36,435 bases of DNA from Candidatus Zixiibacteriota bacterium (lineage in GTDB: Bacteria > Zixibacteria > MSB-5A5 > CAIYYT01): contig JADYYF010000165.1 in the NCBI GenBank assembly GCA_020853795.1, positions 1 to 36,435 on the forward strand, written 5' to 3'. The notes under the pieces are model-generated. The model saw only the letters and a list, made by a program, of their open reading frames with translations. It did no database searches and was not told where the DNA came from. Each line of letters starts with the position of its first letter. Within the stretch, counting starts at the first letter, position 1. The translations under genes and the position numbers were made by a program. Of this stretch, positions 21,979 through 30,469 are shown one piece after another.

Positions 21979-23793
21979 ATGAAAGTGCGCAATTTCTCCC
22001 TCATCACGGCCCTGACGGTGCTCGTTGCGGTCGCCTCGGCAACCGCCGAAACCGCCACCATCGTCAATGTCAAGAATTTCCGCCCCAACGAGGTCTACTG
22101 CAAAGCGATTGAAGTCACTCGCCCGACGACCATCCATATCGATGTCGTCGGCGCCGGCGAGGCAGACCAGGATTGCATGTGGGCCTACGCCTGGATCATC
22201 CCTTCCGGCAAGCTCGATCCAATCTGGGTCATGGAGTGGAACCGCACCGAGGAATTCGGCAGCGAAGAGTGGCTGCGCCGCTATGACAGTAACCTTGAAC
22301 TCGAAACCGGACGCTACGAGATCTACTACTACGCCGGACTGGTCAGAAGCTTCGGCGGAATCGTCATTGACTTCGATTGGGACAAACTCAAAGAGAGCAT
22401 CAAGAAGCTGAAAAAGAACGAGGCCCAGCTTGAGAAGGAACTGCAGGCGCTCGCGATGGAACTCGGTAAAGACGCGTCGTCCGGAGTCGTGGTGTCGATG
22501 GACAAGGCGTCCGAAAAGCTGCTCGATGACTACTATCTGGAAATTGAGGGTGATAATTCGGCGATCCGGATCAGCACCTGTGACTACTCCTCCAAACTCT
22601 CGGTTGCGGAAATCTTGCACCCCGATCACAACCAGTATACTTCTGTCGGTTTCTCTGTCGACAAACCGGTTGAAGTCGAAGTCCAGGCTATCGGCGAGGT
22701 CCTCGGCTGGGATGATGCGTTCGCCGATTACGGCTGGATCATCAACGCCGATTCTCGCCGCCGCATCTGGTCGATGGACAACACGCGCCGCGAATGGGCC
22801 GGCGGCGCTGAGAAGAACCAGATGTCGCGCCGCCTGCTGCAACTTGAGCTCGGTGACTACCTGCTCTACTATGTCACGGATGATTCGCATTCATACGATG
22901 ACTGGAACGCCGCCCCACCCTACAATCCCGAGGCCTACGGCGTGCGCGTCAGCGTCGTTAATGAGCGCGACAAGGCTTCAGTGCGACCCTATAAAGAATC
23001 GCAGTCGCAGATGCCGTTGCTCTCCATCGTCCGCGTCGGCGACGACTTTCAGGAAGTCAAACCCTTCCGCGTCACCCGCGACTGCCAAGTGCGTGTCTAC
23101 GCCATCGGCGAATGCAGCCCCGGCAGCCGTGAGTTTGCCGACTACGCCTGGATCGAGCGCGAAGGCGAAGACGAGCCGATCTGGCTGATGTTGGAGGACA
23201 ATACCGAGCCGGCCGGCGGTGCCAAGAAGAATCGTCTGGCCGATGAAGTGATTACGCTGCCGAAGGGTGACTACTTGCTCGGCTACGTCACCGATGATTC
23301 TCATTCATACGGAGACTGGAATGCCACTCCGCCCTATGATCAGAAGAACTACGGCGTCTCGCTGTTTGCGGCCGCCAACGGCGGCAGCCAACCGCCGATC
23401 GTCGAATTGACTGAAGAAACCGAGTCGGGCGACGTCCTCGCCCGCATTATCCGCGTCGGCGACGATGCCGATGAAACCGCCTCATTTGCCCTTCAGCAGC
23501 CGACCCGGGTCCACATCTACGCTCTCGGCGAAGGCTCCGGCAACGAGATGTACGACTATGGCTGGATCGAGAACTCCGACAACGACGACATCGTTTGGGA
23601 AATGACCTATCGCCGCACGAAACACGCCGGTGGCGCTGAGAAGAACCGCATGGTCGATACCGAGGTTTTGCTCGATAAGGGCCGCTATCGCGTTCACTAC
23701 GTCAGCGACGGATCGCACGCTTTCGGCAGCTGGAATGCCGACAAACCTCGCAATCCGCAACGGTGGGGAATCACCGTCTCGCGCGCTCAATAG
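21979..23793 (+). CDS. exported four-repeat beta-rich protein of unknown function
   Basis: A 604-aa protein with a signal peptide (residues 1-23, ending ASATAE). About four divergent copies of a roughly 110-aa unit follow, near residues 35-135, 213-326, 349-463 and 487-601. Copies 2-4 share AxGE, DYGWI or DYAWI, an I/V-W-x-M strand, AGGAEKN (or AGGAKKN), L-x-K/L-G-D/R-Y, and Y-V-T/S-D-D/G-S-H...WNA..P. Copy 1 is degenerate and is followed by a charged coiled coil (about 135-165). The units look like beta-sandwiches on the cell surface or in the periplasm. I know no named function. ATG 21979 is chosen because the signal peptide starts there. Confidence 0.75.
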   Translation: MKVRNFSLITALTVLVAVASATAETATIVNVKNFRPNEVYCKAIEVTRPTTIHIDVVGAGEADQDCMWAYAWIIPSGKLDPIWVMEWNRTEEFGSEEWLRRYDSNLELETGRYEIYYYAGLVRSFGGIVIDFDWDKLKESIKKLKKNEAQLEKELQALAMELGKDASSGVVVSMDKASEKLLDDYYLEIEGDNSAIRISTCDYSSKLSVAEILHPDHNQYTSVGFSVDKPVEVEVQAIGEVLGWDDAFADYGWIINADSRRRIWSMDNTRREWAGGAEKNQMSRRLLQLELGDYLLYYVTDDSHSYDDWNAAPPYNPEAYGVRVSVVNERDKASVRPYKESQSQMPLLSIVRVGDDFQEVKPFRVTRDCQVRVYAIGECSPGSREFADYAWIEREGEDEPIWLMLEDNTEPAGGAKKNRLADEVITLPKGDYLLGYVTDDSHSYGDWNATPPYDQKNYGVSLFAAANGGSQPPIVELTEETESGDVLARIIRVGDDADETASFALQQPTRVHIYALGEGSGNEMYDYGWIENSDNDDIVWEMTYRRTKHAGGAEKNRMVDTEVLLDKGRYRVHYVSDGSHAFGSWNADKPRNPQRWGITVSRAQ

Positions 23794-23975
23794 TCTTGTT
23801 GGTCTGTCCCCTTCGACCGACTTAACGTGGACTCGATTTCGTTCCGATCCGAAACGCAATCGGGCCCTTTCCCTCGCGTTGATTCACACTGCACTGAATA
23901 CAAAGAATACACAATTACTGCCGATACAAGAAGTGACCGGTTCTGCTCGGTCGGCAATCTGAAGTGTTGTGGACA

Positions 23976-24542
23976 ATGGACCCCAAAGTGCCTGAAGTTA
24001 CGCCATACGGTATCGTCAAGACTATCCGCTACATGGTCAATTCCACGGCGGAATTCCTCGAAGTCATCTATACTGTAAATCAGATTCTGGGCTCCGTCGC
24101 CGACAAACCGATGCTCGAGCAGCTCCACAAGACGGCCCGCTTCGAGGTAATCCCGCTTCCGCATTCACAGCACAAGTTCATTGCCTGCTTTGATGTGCCC
24201 GGCGAATTACTGGGATTGCCGATGCCGCGCAAACCACACCTGCTCGATCTCACCGATGCAAAGTCGGCGGCCAACCGCGTCCGCATTGTCAACAAGCCGC
24301 CGCAGGTCCTGATGCAGTACAAAGTTAGCAGCCTGTATGATATCAACTGCGCCATGTATGACTTTGAAGCCACCCTGGCGCCGGCGATCCCTTCCACCCA
24401 ATGGTTGCGTGTCAAGCGCTCGATCGCAGTCCTGATCATGCCGCGACAGACTCCGGAGGCAACTCATTGCATCCTGATTTCCGCCGAGGCCAATCCGGCG
24501 GCCCCCATTAATCAGGCCGCGCCGGCATCAACAGCTGATTGA
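23976..24542 (+). CDS. hypothetical protein
   Basis: A 188-aa protein I do not recognise. No signal peptide or membrane helix is obvious. The middle has FEVIPLPHSQHKFIACFDVPG and a proline-rich PMPRKPHLLDL. The last 20 residues are Ala/Pro-rich and probably disordered. ATG 23976 is used; GTG and TTG codons lie a few codons upstream (23964-23969). It sits between the repeat protein and folE, 99 bp before folE, with no evident operon partner. Confidence 0.5.
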   Translation: MDPKVPEVTPYGIVKTIRYMVNSTAEFLEVIYTVNQILGSVADKPMLEQLHKTARFEVIPLPHSQHKFIACFDVPGELLGLPMPRKPHLLDLTDAKSAANRVRIVNKPPQVLMQYKVSSLYDINCAMYDFEATLAPAIPSTQWLRVKRSIAVLIMPRQTPEATHCILISAEANPAAPINQAAPASTAD

Positions 24543-25490: not shown

Positions 25491-26078
25491 ATGACTGACT
25501 CAATCCAACTTCTCGCTCCAACCGAGGCCGAATTGCAGGCCGCCTTCTGGAAGCAGGTCGAGTCGTTCCCCGATGGCCACAAAATCAAGAAGTGTCTCCA
25601 GTGCGGCACGTGCACCGGCGCCTGCCCGGTATCGGAGTTTATGGACCTGACGCCGCGCCAGATGGTGGCCATGTTCCGCGCCGGCCGCATCGAGGAACTG
25701 CTGCGTTCCAAGTCGATCTGGATATGCGCTTCCTGCTACTCCTGCACGGTGCGGTGCCCCGCCGGCATCAAGGTGACCGACACGATGTATGCGCTGAAGC
25801 GAATCGCCATGCAACGCAAGATCTACCCCGCCAATTTCCCGGTGCAAAGTCTGTCTTCGGCCTTCTTGCGCAATGTCTACAAGTACGGTCGCAACTACGA
25901 ACTGGGTTTGGCCGTGAAGTACTTTATGCGGTCTAATTTTGTGAAATTATTCACGAGTGCCGGTTATGGCATGTCACTGATGAAGAACGGCCGGATGGGG
26001 CTGCTGCCGAAGCGGATCAACCGCGTCAAGCAGATTCAGGCCATTATTAAGAAAGCTAACGAATTCGGAGAATACTGA
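25491..26078 (+). CDS. hdrC: heterodisulfide reductase subunit C
   Basis: A 195-aa iron-sulfur protein with two [4Fe-4S] sites: C35/C38/C41/C45 in CLQCGTCTGACP and C79/C82/C85/C89 in CASCYSCTVRCP. It has the N-terminal ferredoxin-like and C-terminal helical layout of HdrC. In HdrABC complexes it passes electrons from HdrA to the HdrB active site in the cytoplasm. It is the first gene of an eleven-gene operon; AAGGA precedes ATG 25491. Its stop overlaps the hdrB start (TGATG), indicating coupled translation. The length is close to typical HdrC proteins. Confidence 0.93.
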   Translation: MTDSIQLLAPTEAELQAAFWKQVESFPDGHKIKKCLQCGTCTGACPVSEFMDLTPRQMVAMFRAGRIEELLRSKSIWICASCYSCTVRCPAGIKVTDTMYALKRIAMQRKIYPANFPVQSLSSAFLRNVYKYGRNYELGLAVKYFMRSNFVKLFTSAGYGMSLMKNGRMGLLPKRINRVKQIQAIIKKANEFGEY

Positions 26079-26956
26079 TGCCCGAGTACGCTTACTACCC
26101 CGGTTGCAGTCTCGAACACACCGCCAGTCCGTACGATCTGTCGATGCGCGCTGTCTTTAAGGCCCTCGATATCGGCTTGCGGGAAATCGAAGACTGGAAT
26201 TGCTGCGGCGCCACGATGTACATGTCGTCGAAAAAAATCGTCGGCTACTCGATCAGTGCCCGCAATCTCGCGCTCGCACAGGAAATGAAGCTCGATGTCT
26301 GTGCTCCCTGTTCAAGCTGCTATACGATTCTGGACAAGACCAACCGCCAGATCAACTGGAATCCGCAACAGCGCCAGCAAATCAACACGGCCCTGGCCGA
26401 AGCCGGACTTTCCTATGACGGCAGCGTCAAAGTTCGCCATCCCCTCGACATTCTCATCAATGATCTGGGATTGGAGAAACTCAAGGAGAAGGTGACCAAT
26501 CCGTTGAACGGCCTGAAGGTTGCCCCCTACTACGGCTGCCAGATCGTCCGACCGCACGGTTACTTCGACGACACCGACGATCCGCAGACGATGGATCAGT
26601 TGATTCGCGCCCTCGGCGGCGAAGCCGTGCATTACCCGCTCAAAGTGCGCTGCTGCGGCGGCATGCTGATGACCACCGACGATACCATTGCCTTGAAGCT
26701 GTGTCACGAGATTCTGCAGGCGGCGGCCGACAACAAGGCCGACGTCGTCGCCACCGCGTGCCCGCTCTGCCATATCAATCTCGAGGGCTATCAAAAGCAA
26801 ATCAACGCCCGCTTCGGTTCACACCTCGATCTGCCGATCGTGTACTTCACTCATCTGGTCGGCGTCGCGCTCGGCCTGTCGGCCCAGGAATTGGGGCTGG
26901 ACAAGCTGCTGATTGCGCCTCGCCGGCTGATGACAAGGGAGGTGGCCCACACATGA
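26078..26956 (+). CDS. hdrB: heterodisulfide reductase subunit B
   Basis: A 292-aa protein with two complete CCG domains: C10, C42-C43, C78, C81 and C154, C192-C193, C228, C231. These bind the two non-cubane [4Fe-4S] clusters that reduce the CoM-CoB disulfide in methanogens. Because both sets are intact, the protein should be catalytically competent. The host is unlikely to use CoM-CoB disulfide, so the real acceptor is unknown; other HdrB-type proteins act on disulfides or hand electrons to other partners. Start overlaps hdrC and the stop overlaps the next ATG (ATGA). Confidence 0.93.
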   Translation: MPEYAYYPGCSLEHTASPYDLSMRAVFKALDIGLREIEDWNCCGATMYMSSKKIVGYSISARNLALAQEMKLDVCAPCSSCYTILDKTNRQINWNPQQRQQINTALAEAGLSYDGSVKVRHPLDILINDLGLEKLKEKVTNPLNGLKVAPYYGCQIVRPHGYFDDTDDPQTMDQLIRALGGEAVHYPLKVRCCGGMLMTTDDTIALKLCHEILQAAADNKADVVATACPLCHINLEGYQKQINARFGSHLDLPIVYFTHLVGVALGLSAQELGLDKLLIAPRRLMTREVAHT

Positions 26957-27936
26957 GCAACTCAGACAACGGCGCGGAAATCCGCGTTGGGGTATATGTC
27001 TGCCATTGCGGCACCAACATCGCTAAGACCGTTGACGTCGCCAAGGTCGCCGAAATGGCAGCCACGCTCCCGAACGTCGTGGTCGCTCGCCATTACAAAT
27101 TCATGTGCTCCGATCCTGGTCAGGATCTGATTCAGCGCGATATCAAGGAGCTGAAACTCAATCGCGTCGTCGTGGCCGCCTGCAGTCCCTTGATGCACGA
27201 ACCGACCTTCCGGAATGCCTGCGCCGCGGCCGGTCTCAATCGGTACCTGTTCGAAATGGCGAACATCCGCGAACAGGTCAGCTGGGTCACGCTCGACTCC
27301 AAAGGCGCGACCACCAAGGCGATGGCGCTCGTTCGCGCTGCCGTCGCCCGCGTGCGCTTGCACGAACCACTGGAGATGCGGCGCGTACCGATCAAGAAGC
27401 GCGTGCTCGTAGTCGGCGCCGGAATTGCCGGTATCGAGTCCGCCCTGCAGATCGCCGACGCCGGATTTGAAGTGGTTCTGGTTGAGAAGGAACCGTCGAT
27501 CGGCGGACACATGGCGCAGTTCGACAAGACGTTTCCGACGCTCGACTGCGCCGCCTGCATTCTGACGCCGAAGATGGTCTCGGTCGGCAAACATCCGAAT
27601 ATTCGGCTGATGACCTGGACCGAAGTCGAGGAAGTCTCCGGCTACCTCGGGAATTTCACCGTCAAGCTCAAACGCAAGCCGCGTTACGTCGACGTGAAGA
27701 AGTGCAATAGCTGCGGCGCTTGCTATGAGGCGTGCCCGAGCGTGCCGACTCCGGCCTATCGGCGCATGACTCTCGGCGGCCGTGTCTACCGCGAGGGCCG
27801 CCTGCTCGACGTGCAAGACAAGTGGCGCATGGGACCCAAGCACGACCTGACGGTCTTGACCGCCGCCCAGCCGATGCCGGAGAACCTGCCGACGCCGGAG
27901 TCGCAGCCGGTCCAAGTGGAGGTGCAACAGCAATGA
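26953..27936 (+). CDS. hdrA: HdrA, N-terminal half only (split HdrA)
   Basis: A 327-aa protein equal to roughly the first half of HdrA. The N-terminal cluster domain (about 10-140) has cysteines in YVCHCG, MCSDPG and AACSP. The FAD Rossmann motif GAGIAG (155-160) is followed by VEKEPSIGGHMAQFDKTFPT and CAACILTPKMV. One [4Fe-4S] motif (C251, C254, C257, C261) completes the first half of the inserted ferredoxin domain. Normal HdrA continues with a second cluster, the rest of the FAD domain and a C-terminal ferredoxin. Here the protein instead ends in an unrelated, Pro/Gln-rich tail of about 65 residues. The missing half is encoded three genes downstream (30478-32235). The ATGA overlaps on both sides show an intact operon gene, not a broken one. 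Confidence 0.9.
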   Translation: MSNSDNGAEIRVGVYVCHCGTNIAKTVDVAKVAEMAATLPNVVVARHYKFMCSDPGQDLIQRDIKELKLNRVVVAACSPLMHEPTFRNACAAAGLNRYLFEMANIREQVSWVTLDSKGATTKAMALVRAAVARVRLHEPLEMRRVPIKKRVLVVGAGIAGIESALQIADAGFEVVLVEKEPSIGGHMAQFDKTFPTLDCAACILTPKMVSVGKHPNIRLMTWTEVEEVSGYLGNFTVKLKRKPRYVDVKKCNSCGACYEACPSVPTPAYRRMTLGGRVYREGRLLDVQDKWRMGPKHDLTVLTAAQPMPENLPTPESQPVQVEVQQQ

Positions 27937-28457
27937 CAACGACTGCAGTCAAGCCTGAAGAATATGATGTTCAGGAAGCCATCGACAAGATCGTCGCCGA
28001 GTATGGTGCGAAACCATCCGCGCTGATCATGATCTTGCAGGATATCCAGAAACACTACCGCTACTTGCCGGAATCGGCCATGCACGCCGTTTCCAAGTCG
28101 ATGAAGCTGCCGATCGCGCAGATTTACGGCGTCGCAACGTTCTATCGGTCCTTCAGCTTGAAGCCGAAGGGCAAGAACCACGTCTGCGTCTGCACCGGTA
28201 CCGCCTGTCATGTGCGGCAGGCCACCGTCATTGTCGACAAGCTCCGGCGCGACCTCAAGATCGAGCCCGGTGAGACTACGCCCGACGGCGAGATCAGCCT
28301 GGAAACCGTGAACTGCCTCGGGGCCTGCGCCCTTGGACCGCTCGTCACGGCCAACGACATCTACTACGGCAACATGACGGTCTCCAAGACGGAGCAAATG
28401 CTGAATGACATCCGCGCCGGCAAATTGAGTGCCAAGAAAGACGAGGTGGCCGGATGA
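27933..28457 (+). CDS. NuoE/HydC-like [2Fe-2S] subunit
   Basis: A 174-aa thioredoxin-fold [2Fe-2S] protein of the 24-kDa complex I family, with ligands C87 and C92 (CTGTAC) and C128 and C132 (CLGAC). The N-terminal helices (ALIMILQDIQKHYRYLP) and GVATFYRSFS are family-typical. In NADH dehydrogenases and in trimeric HydABC hydrogenases it partners the FMN subunit, which is encoded next. It starts inside the end of the hdrA half gene (ATGA) and its own stop overlaps the next start, so NuoE, NuoF and the Hdr parts are made together. Best named HydC or NuoE-like. Confidence 0.93.
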   Translation: MTTTAVKPEEYDVQEAIDKIVAEYGAKPSALIMILQDIQKHYRYLPESAMHAVSKSMKLPIAQIYGVATFYRSFSLKPKGKNHVCVCTGTACHVRQATVIVDKLRRDLKIEPGETTPDGEISLETVNCLGACALGPLVTANDIYYGNMTVSKTEQMLNDIRAGKLSAKKDEVAG

Positions 28458-30469
28458 AAGACCCTGTCCTGAAGACAACGGCCGACTTACAGCAGCTGCG
28501 CGAAAAGCTGCAGCACAACCGCAACGTCAACAAGACTGTCATCACTGTCTGTGCCGGCACCGGCTGCCTGGCGTGCGGCTGCGAAAGCGTTGCCAAGACG
28601 TTTCGCGAGTTGCTCGCGTCTGACCACATGGAAAATGAAGTCGAGCTGAAGACAACCGGCTGCCACGGCTTCTGTGAACGCGGACCACTGGTCGTCATTC
28701 AACCACAAGGCGTCTTTTACCAGCGCGTTCGTCCCGCCGACGCCAAATTGATCTGGGAACAGACCATCAAGGGCGGGAAGCTAGTAAACAAGCTGCTGTA
28801 CAAAGACCCGCAGTCGCAACAGGTGATCAAGCTCGAGAAAGATATTCCCTTCTACCGCAAGCAGATGCGCCTGATTTTCGGCAGGAACGGCTACATGGAT
28901 CCGACCTCGATCTCCGACTACATCCTGCTCGGTGGCTACCAGGCCATGGTTAAGGCGCTGACGACAATGAAACCGGAACAGGTGATCGACATCGTCAAGA
29001 AATCCGGCCTGCGCGGACGCGGCGGCGGTGGCTTCCCGACCGGAAAGAAATGGGAGTCATGCCGCAGGGCGAAGGGCGAACCGAAGTACATCATCTGCAA
29101 CGCCGACGAGGGTGATCCCGGCGCCTTCATGAACCGCTCACTGCTGGAGGGCAACCCGCATTCGGTGATCGAAGGCATGGTTATCGGCGCCTTCGCTATC
29201 GGCAGCACCGACGGTTTCGTTTACGTCCGCAACGAGTACCCGCTGGCGGTCAAGAACCTGACGATCGCGATCAACCAGGCACGGGAATACGGCCTCCTCG
29301 GCCAGAACATTCTCGGCACCGGCTTCAACTTCGACATCGAGATTTCTCGCGGCGGCGGCGCATTCGTCTGCGGTGAGTCGACCGCGCTGATGGCCTCGCT
29401 CGAAGGCAAGGTCGGCGAGCCGCGCGCCAAATACATCCACACGGTCGAAGCCGGGTTCAATGATAAACCGTCCAATCTCAACAACGTTGAGACCTGGGCC
29501 AATATCCCGCTGATCGTCGAGCGCGGCCCCGAGTGGTTCGCTTCGATCGGCACCGAAGGCTCCAAAGGCACCAAGGTGTTCGCCTTGACCGGCAAAGTCA
29601 ACAACACCGGCTTGGTCGAAGTGCCAATGGGCATCACGCTGCGCGAGATTCTCTATGATATCGGCGGCGGCGTCCCGAACAACAAACGATTCAAAGCCGT
29701 CCAGACCGGCGGTCCTTCCGGCGGCACGCTGATCGTGGAGACGTCCGATGCGGCGATTCACGACAGCTTGGTCGCCCATGGTGACATCAACGAAGACGAC
29801 GAGCCGCACAGCCTGCTCGACCTGCCGGTCGATTTCGATGAATTGACGCGCGCCGGCTCGATGATGGGATCCGGCGGCATGATCGTCATGGACGAAGACT
29901 CCTGCATGGTGGATGTCGCCCGCTACTTCCTCAATTTCCTGCAGGAAGAATCGTGCGGCAAGTGTCTGCCCTGTCGCGAAGGCATCGTTGTGATGCTCAA
30001 CATCCTGAACAAGATCTGCCACGGCGAAGGCACGATGGAGGATATCACCTACCTCGAGCAATTATCACAGGTGATTATTGACACCAGTCTCTGCCAGCTG
30101 GGCGGATCGGCGCCGAACCCGGTGCTGTCGACGATCCGCTACTTCCGGCAGGAGTACATCGCCCACGTCCGCGACAAACGTTGTCCGGCGGGCGTCTGCA
30201 AGGATCTGGTGGCGCACGCGATCGACAACACCTGTACCGGCTGTCACGCCTGCGTCAAGCCGTGTCCGACGGCGGCAATCATCGGTGAACCGAAACGTCT
30301 GCACGTGATCATCCAGGATAAGTGCATCCAGTGCGGCGCGTGCTACCAGATCTGCCGCTATAACTCGATCAAACGGGTCAAGCGCGGTGAAGGCGACCGT
30401 ATCCAACAACGCGCGCGCGAAATGTGGCAGCCCCGGATAACCGACAAACAGCCGGCGCCGGTGGCGTAG
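28454..30469 (+). CDS. NuoF/HydB-like NAD(H)-FMN subunit with extra FeS domains
   Basis: A 671-aa NADH-binding subunit. The N-terminal thioredoxin-like [2Fe-2S] domain has C33, C38, C70, C74. The NuoF core has NADH/FMN glycine loops (LRGRGGGGFPTGKKW at 186-200 and CNADEGDPGAF at 215-225). The N3-type cluster is C501/C504/C507 (CGKCLPCREG) and C547. A C-terminal 2x[4Fe-4S] ferredoxin domain has C594/C597/C600/C604 and C624/C627/C630/C634. This layout is that of HydB of electron-bifurcating hydrogenases, longer than plain NuoF. It would oxidise or reduce NAD(P)(H) at FMN and connect to ferredoxin-type centres. ATG 28454 overlaps the NuoE stop; the stop is eight bases before the fusion gene. Confidence 0.93.
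   Translation: MKDPVLKTTADLQQLREKLQHNRNVNKTVITVCAGTGCLACGCESVAKTFRELLASDHMENEVELKTTGCHGFCERGPLVVIQPQGVFYQRVRPADAKLIWEQTIKGGKLVNKLLYKDPQSQQVIKLEKDIPFYRKQMRLIFGRNGYMDPTSISDYILLGGYQAMVKALTTMKPEQVIDIVKKSGLRGRGGGGFPTGKKWESCRRAKGEPKYIICNADEGDPGAFMNRSLLEGNPHSVIEGMVIGAFAIGSTDGFVYVRNEYPLAVKNLTIAINQAREYGLLGQNILGTGFNFDIEISRGGGAFVCGESTALMASLEGKVGEPRAKYIHTVEAGFNDKPSNLNNVETWANIPLIVERGPEWFASIGTEGSKGTKVFALTGKVNNTGLVEVPMGITLREILYDIGGGVPNNKRFKAVQTGGPSGGTLIVETSDAAIHDSLVAHGDINEDDEPHSLLDLPVDFDELTRAGSMMGSGGMIVMDEDSCMVDVARYFLNFLQEESCGKCLPCREGIVVMLNILNKICHGEGTMEDITYLEQLSQVIIDTSLCQLGGSAPNPVLSTIRYFRQEYIAHVRDKRCPAGVCKDLVAHAIDNTCTGCHACVKPCPTAAIIGEPKRLHVIIQDKCIQCGACYQICRYNSIKRVKRGEGDRIQQRAREMWQPRITDKQPAPVA

Follow-up and report, generated by a model that had tools for sequence, protein, structure and literature searches.

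A widespread, unnamed bacterial domain family with a likely CUB-like fold and a conserved polar site

The four-domain protein and its distribution

We analysed a window of 36,435 nucleotides, contig JADYYF010000165.1 of a Candidatus Zixiibacteriota bacterium (assembly GCA_020853795.1). On its forward strand, an open reading frame (21979..23793) encodes an exported protein of 604 amino acids with four tandem domains, here D1 to D4. The N-terminus resembles a Sec signal peptide without a lipobox (aa 1-23, 21979..22047); this putative assignment was made by eye rather than with a predictor, and the structural model places a low-confidence helix at residues 6-19. Upstream of the gene lie AsmA-like, Peptidase_MA, lipid A acyltransferase, SH3, glycosyltransferase and PfkB genes, while downstream an unmatched open reading frame is followed by a folE-like gene (recognised by eye) and then by iron-sulphur redox genes. 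Neither Rfam families nor tRNAs were found within the window.

Three of the domains carry a set of polar residues that we refer to as the site. These are D2 (aa 208-327, 22600..22959; E240, D250, N280, D301 and H304), D3 (aa 347-466, 23017..23376; E378, D388, N418, D439 and H442) and D4 (aa 486-604, 23434..23790; E518, D526, N556, D577 and H580), all delimited by self-comparison, profile matches and conservation, with a single-domain model in addition for D4. D1 comprises a fold core without the site residues (aa 25-125, 22051..22353), recognised by its profile match and its similarity to D2-D4. It is followed by a mostly helical insert (aa 126-184, 22354..22530; helices 134-144, 148-164 and 176-184 in the model) and by what is probably its last strand (aa 185-199, 22531..22575; strand 186-192 in the model).

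The original prediction, which saw four copies of about 110 residues, was right about the repetition, but the copies are not equal and the unit is about 120 residues long. Smith-Waterman comparisons against 200 shuffles gave Z scores of 44 (D2/D3), 37 (D2/D4) and 54 (D3/D4), and D1 scored 12, 14 and 22 against D2, D3 and D4, respectively. The signatures that had been ascribed to all four copies are confined to D2-D4, namely DY(G/A)WI, W-x-M (WSM, WLM and WEM), AGGA(E/K)KN, D(D/G)SH and WNA...P; among them, D1 retains Y-A-W-I and W-V-M alone. D1 residues 31-125 aligned with positions 2-96 of the 114-position domain profile, and a mostly helical, low-confidence stretch takes the place of the DDSH...WN...P loop, with much of the insert at pLDDT below 50. 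Using an iterated profile, we found four units in 22 of the 23 proteins searched, the window protein included, and thus in all 22 untruncated ones; the 23rd (L027) has three units and lacks D1 because its contig is cut. Wherever D1 is present, its match stops at profile position 89-98 of 114. Therefore, the repeat is real, but the signatures belong to copies 2-4.

A whole-protein search of the window's own genome matched this protein and no other. At E <= 0.001, whole-protein searches found a match in 45 of 58 related genomes, and the domain profile matched in 71 of the 118 genomes of the window's phylum (own genome included in both). A named collection contributed seven loci (three Zixibacteria, two Bacteroidota, one KSB1 and one 'uncultured bacterium') with 33-60% identity over the full length. 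Matches were also obtained in 39 of 82 genomes from the phylum of the KSB1 MAG and in 34 of 198 from the phylum of a Bacteroidota MAG; a further set of 99 genomes (21 matching) lay, all but one, within the sets above. Among viral contigs, one pattern gave nine stretches, none of which was confirmed, and no plasmid match was found with one sensor-type copy as query. In the genome of locus L007 (G125), nine domain matches correspond to two four-copy genes and a 352-aa open reading frame with one copy.

Despite this distribution, the family lacks a name in the libraries searched. The window protein was matched by no Pfam-A or NCBIfam model at cut-off (the highest scores were 15.2 bits where 35 was required and 12.6 bits where 278 was), and no PDB sequence matched better than E 0.05; the best E values were 0.28, 0.053 and 0.22, the third for a beta-xylosidase aligned with domain positions 67-117. 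Among eight homologues, the best weak Pfam matches were AMPK1_CBM (2 of 8, best E 0.00078; absent from the window protein) and DUF6786 (2 of 8, E 0.006). Narrow word searches of the literature found no published description of such a domain. The earlier statement that no named domain has this pattern is thus borne out at the sequence level, where neither model libraries nor PDB sequences yielded a match to a characterised domain. That is, the family is real, widespread in three bacterial groups and yet unnamed in the Pfam-A and NCBIfam copies searched.

Conservation of the site and its loss from D1

For a conservation count, we took open reading frames of at least 300 aa, removed near-duplicates and kept those that have three or more full copies, a selection that by construction excludes proteins with fewer. 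The 51 proteins retained have exactly three each (153 D2-D4 copies) and were combined with 18 sensor copies from 16 long proteins, giving 171 site-bearing copies from several phyla. Six open reading frames fell outside the count: L064 and L011 each have four matches, of which fewer than three are full copies, and L053-L056 have one match each. D41, N71, H95 and P105 (domain numbering) were kept in 171 of 171 copies, followed by G67 (170), E33 and D92 (169 each), W55 (168), K70 (154) and S94 (151). The site is thus also preserved where the domain forms part of a sensor protein. One histidine per domain is conserved in the alignment and no cysteine, any cysteine at all being present in 44 of the 171 copies.

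D1 is a natural control, in which the fold residues are kept and the site is gone. Among 50 D1 copies, W44, W55 and G83 were retained in all 50 and Y85 in 49, as opposed to E33 in six, D41 in two, and N71 and the GGxxKN motif in one each. The D92 and H95 columns are mostly gaps in D1 because the profile match ends there; the motif [ST]D.[STC]H occurred in none of the 50 segments running from D1 to D2. Nothing else argues as strongly as this contrast that the polar residues form one functional site, which would correspond to a single pocket. As to the suggestion that the polar residues bind a ligand or ion, the conservation on which it was based is firm (169-171 of 171 copies, and almost absent from D1) and fits such a site, and binding itself is probable.

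In a quick tree of the 171 copies (70 of 168 inner branches open), most copies fell into groups that match their label (D2, D3, D4 or sensor): the labels changed seven times, compared with a possible minimum of 3 and a shuffled mean of 89.8. D2 and D3 were partly mixed, and 17 copies from six divergent genomes of the Bacteroidota search (L088-L093) formed a separate group, within which D2, D3 and D4 copies are again present. Since the number of units is constant and the copies cluster by position despite this mixing, one old triplication before the phyla diverged is suggested. A recent repeat expansion was considered and appears unlikely, given that all 22 untruncated proteins have four units and that the copies cluster by position.

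Predicted fold and likeness to known domains

Structure prediction gave a full-length model with pLDDT 79.2 and pTM 0.60 (8 sequences) and a D4 single-domain model with eight strands, pLDDT 96.5 and pTM 0.88 (24 rows). A Foldseek search with the full model returned seven matches at E <= 0.001, all with low whole-chain TM-scores: cubilin CUBs (5e-8), the collagen-binding domain of ColG (5iku, 8e-6), a ciliary complex, enteropeptidase, PBCV-1 capsid protein, APRIL-BAFF and Cry1Aa. The single domain gave nothing at E <= 0.001; its top rows were ColG, p24 GOLD and viral haemagglutinin jelly rolls. VIA-align, by whose scale a Z of 8.4 is middling and values below about 8 may reflect merely a common arrangement, tied a PPC domain (5sv5) with the CUB domain of Kremen (5fwt) at 8.4, followed by ColG (1nqj, 7.9), C1s CUB1 (1nzi_B, 7.6 over 93 residues at 2.7 A), p24 GOLD (5azy_B, 7.4), InhA2 (7.4) and supernatant protein factor (1o6u_C, 6.6). 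CUB, collagen-binding and GOLD domains constitute one SCOP fold, 'CUB-like' (b.23). The fold class is thus likely a CUB-like, eight-stranded sandwich, and the model points to no one family, with CUB, PPC and GOLD all matching. The domain had been called undescribed, which holds for its sequence but not for its predicted fold.

Beyond the predicted fold, the resemblance to calcium-binding CUB domains (PF00431; C1s CUB1, MASP, cubilin) extends to the order of three acids and a serine. A report on C1s (PMC4222235) names Glu45, Asp98 and Ser100 of CUB1 as the residues in contact with a lysine of the ligand, and Asp53 as indispensable for the Ca site. Set against the residues named there, E33, D41, D92 and S94 have the same order and similar spacing; the distance from E33 to D41 is 8 in D4, as in C1s, and 10 in D2 and D3, and D92 lies within [ST]-D-x-S. 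In global profile alignments, E33, D41 and D92 paired with Glu45, Asp53 and Asp98 at six of six gap settings, and S94 paired with Ser100 at five of six. Column shuffles reproduced the acid pairing in 0 of 150 cases; 15 of 55 rotations also paired the acids, including small rotations absorbed by gaps. The alignment score itself was weak and not significant (Z 2.2 and 1.2, 60 shuffles each), and the reversed profile scored slightly above the true one. With free ends, the sites were left unpaired at four of four settings.

By sequence, we rejected membership of the CUB family. Pfam did not list CUB on the protein or on its four domains at E <= 10, and hhalign of the domain profile with CUB (four CUB rows only) gave a probability of 0.5% and E 0.12, that is, no detectable homology; the free-end alignments were likewise negative. 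A genome search with PF00431 matched 0 of 58 genomes and decides nothing on CUB membership, because its controls matched nowhere either. In contrast to CUB domains, the window domain lacks the CG/Cys pattern of the CUB rows and adds the invariant N71 and H95, the AGGxxKN motif and a W-N...P loop, which comes after Asp92 and has no equivalent in C1s CUB1. By analogy, the domain may work like a calcium-binding CUB, which is not to say that it is a CUB.

PPC and clostridial collagen-binding domains (5sv5, 1nqj and 5iku) are similar in predicted fold, are exported and occur in tandem in ColG (5iku). However, up to E 10 Pfam found nothing of this family (for PPC presumably PF04151) in the window protein, and the Ca site of PPC and collagen-binding domains lies elsewhere than the site described here. 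GOLD domains (p24, supernatant protein factor) are alike in predicted fold and had no sequence match; GOLD is a eukaryotic trafficking domain.

Possible function and genomic context

The domain profile also matched long open reading frames, 16 among the loci fetched. We scanned 11 of these with Pfam (L049-L052, L078, L079, L080, L082, L084, L085 and L086) and found Reg_prop (PF07494) in all 11 and Y_Y_Y (PF07495) in 10. Six have HisKA/HATPase-type outputs (L050, L051, L052, L080, L082 and L086) and four a SpoIIE output (L078, L079, L084 and L085); L049 has no output module. These sensors (L049-L052 and L078-L087, with two adjacent genes each in L083 and L085) carry the domain as an extra insert, whereas the window protein has neither propeller nor output module. 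A ligand-sensing module would be expected to look like this, as one extra domain common to sensors of two output types, and its presence there offers a route to the signal being read. A further single copy lies at the end of a beta-lactamase-family (PF00144) serine hydrolase (L055, 5219-7018, minus strand), which by eye is apparently a lipoprotein.

Since the predicted shape is CUB- and collagen-binding-like and relatives occur in sensors, ligand binding outside the cell interior is probable. We favour, at about even confidence, a module that binds a ligand outside the cytoplasm through a pocket of CUB type in which Ca2+ probably assists. The 604-aa product would then be an exported (periplasmic or surface) binding protein, in which the site-less D1 is followed by the site-bearing D2-D4. 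In each of the latter, Glu33, Asp41 and Asp92 would be placed as in calcium-binding CUB domains, in a pocket that also takes in Asn71, His95, Ser94 and the W-N...P loop. The acidic triad would most likely hold a metal, probably Ca2+, and the metal would give the pocket the shape to take up either a small ligand or a basic or polar group offered by a partner. Having three successive sites may add avidity. In the Reg_prop sensors, the domain may perform the same binding step and pass it on to a kinase or SpoIIE phosphatase. More tentatively, we propose that the whole unnamed family uses such a calcium-assisted CUB-type pocket, reached by descent or convergence, as a plug-in extracytoplasmic sensor, present as a tandem of three in the four-domain proteins of Zixibacteria, KSB1 and Bacteroidota and singly or in pairs in each propeller sensor. 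Should the calcium pocket be real, bacteria would have a counterpart of the way in which the CUB domains of complement and cubilin bind. The near-invariant site and the natural site-less D1 make a clean mutational test possible.

The gene neighbourhood bears on the choice between this reading and its main rival, sugar binding. Among 27 loci compared, lipid A acyltransferase, GT9 heptosyltransferase, TldD-like and TldE-like clusters occurred in 10 each, an HldE-kinase-like PfkB in nine and a cytidylyltransferase-like gene in seven. The Bacteroidota loci compared have different surroundings without the lipid A/heptose/TldD-TldE set. The set is thus weakened as a direct clue, being present in 10 of the 27 loci but in none of these Bacteroidota, and weakly hints at an envelope role in Zixibacteria. 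Nearby lipid A and heptose genes would suit a carbohydrate-binding module, in which Trp, Asn, His, Lys and the acids bind a sugar or oligosaccharide and a metal is at most structural; the four-domain protein would bind glycans and the sensor version report them. Reg_prop/Y_Y_Y architectures resemble the carbohydrate sensors of Bacteroides, and CBM6 (2cdp) and CBM35 (2wz8 and 2w3j) were among the single-domain Foldseek matches (E ~0.005). The hybrid two-component family is described as carbohydrate-sensing in PMC3404733, which does not mention propellers. However, CBM6 and CBM35 are absent among the best 50 VIA-align matches listed, none of the recurrent neighbours scanned is a carbohydrate-degrading gene, and most of the invariant residues are charged or polar, in an order like that of a Ca site, so that we regard sugar binding as rather unlikely.

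A structural or adhesive PPC-like module, whose conserved residues would serve mainly to stabilise loops in a protein acting as a scaffold or as an export-related domain array, would agree with the PPC and collagen-binding domains among the best structural matches and with a domain number as constant as a fixed scaffold requires. Since D1 keeps the fold without the site residues, these are dispensable for folding; they also persist across unrelated architectures, and we consider this explanation improbable. E33, D41, D92, N71 and H95 might also bind Zn, Mn or Fe for capture or catalysis, as the co-occurrence of the invariant His95 and Asn71 with three acids would allow. But a single conserved histidine per domain without a conserved cysteine argues against a transition-metal or catalytic site, no metal-transport gene is among the recurrent neighbours scanned, and where the nearest folds have a metal site, its ion is Ca2+. 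PMC4222235 agrees with the latter for C1s. A transition-metal or catalytic site appears improbable.

Several further observations concern genes around the four-domain gene. In the window, a 192-aa open reading frame without Pfam match (23964-24542, plus strand) has a 49% identical relative that adjoins the same gene in L002, and a Fer4, CCG and NuoF-like (Complex1_51K) cluster (25491-30469) is like a heterodisulfide-reductase/hydrogenase-type electron-transfer unit. In L004, L008 and L095, a protein of about 470-490 aa is encoded directly downstream of the four-domain gene; in L004 and L008 it has an Omp85 match and a weak DUF5686 match, so that the four-domain protein may there have a barrel of the outer membrane as its partner. 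Several loci of one family have a gene for an ECF sigma factor close to the four-domain gene and on the opposite strand, as in L063 (8696-9283, plus strand) and, with related open reading frames, in L065, L068, L070 and L073.
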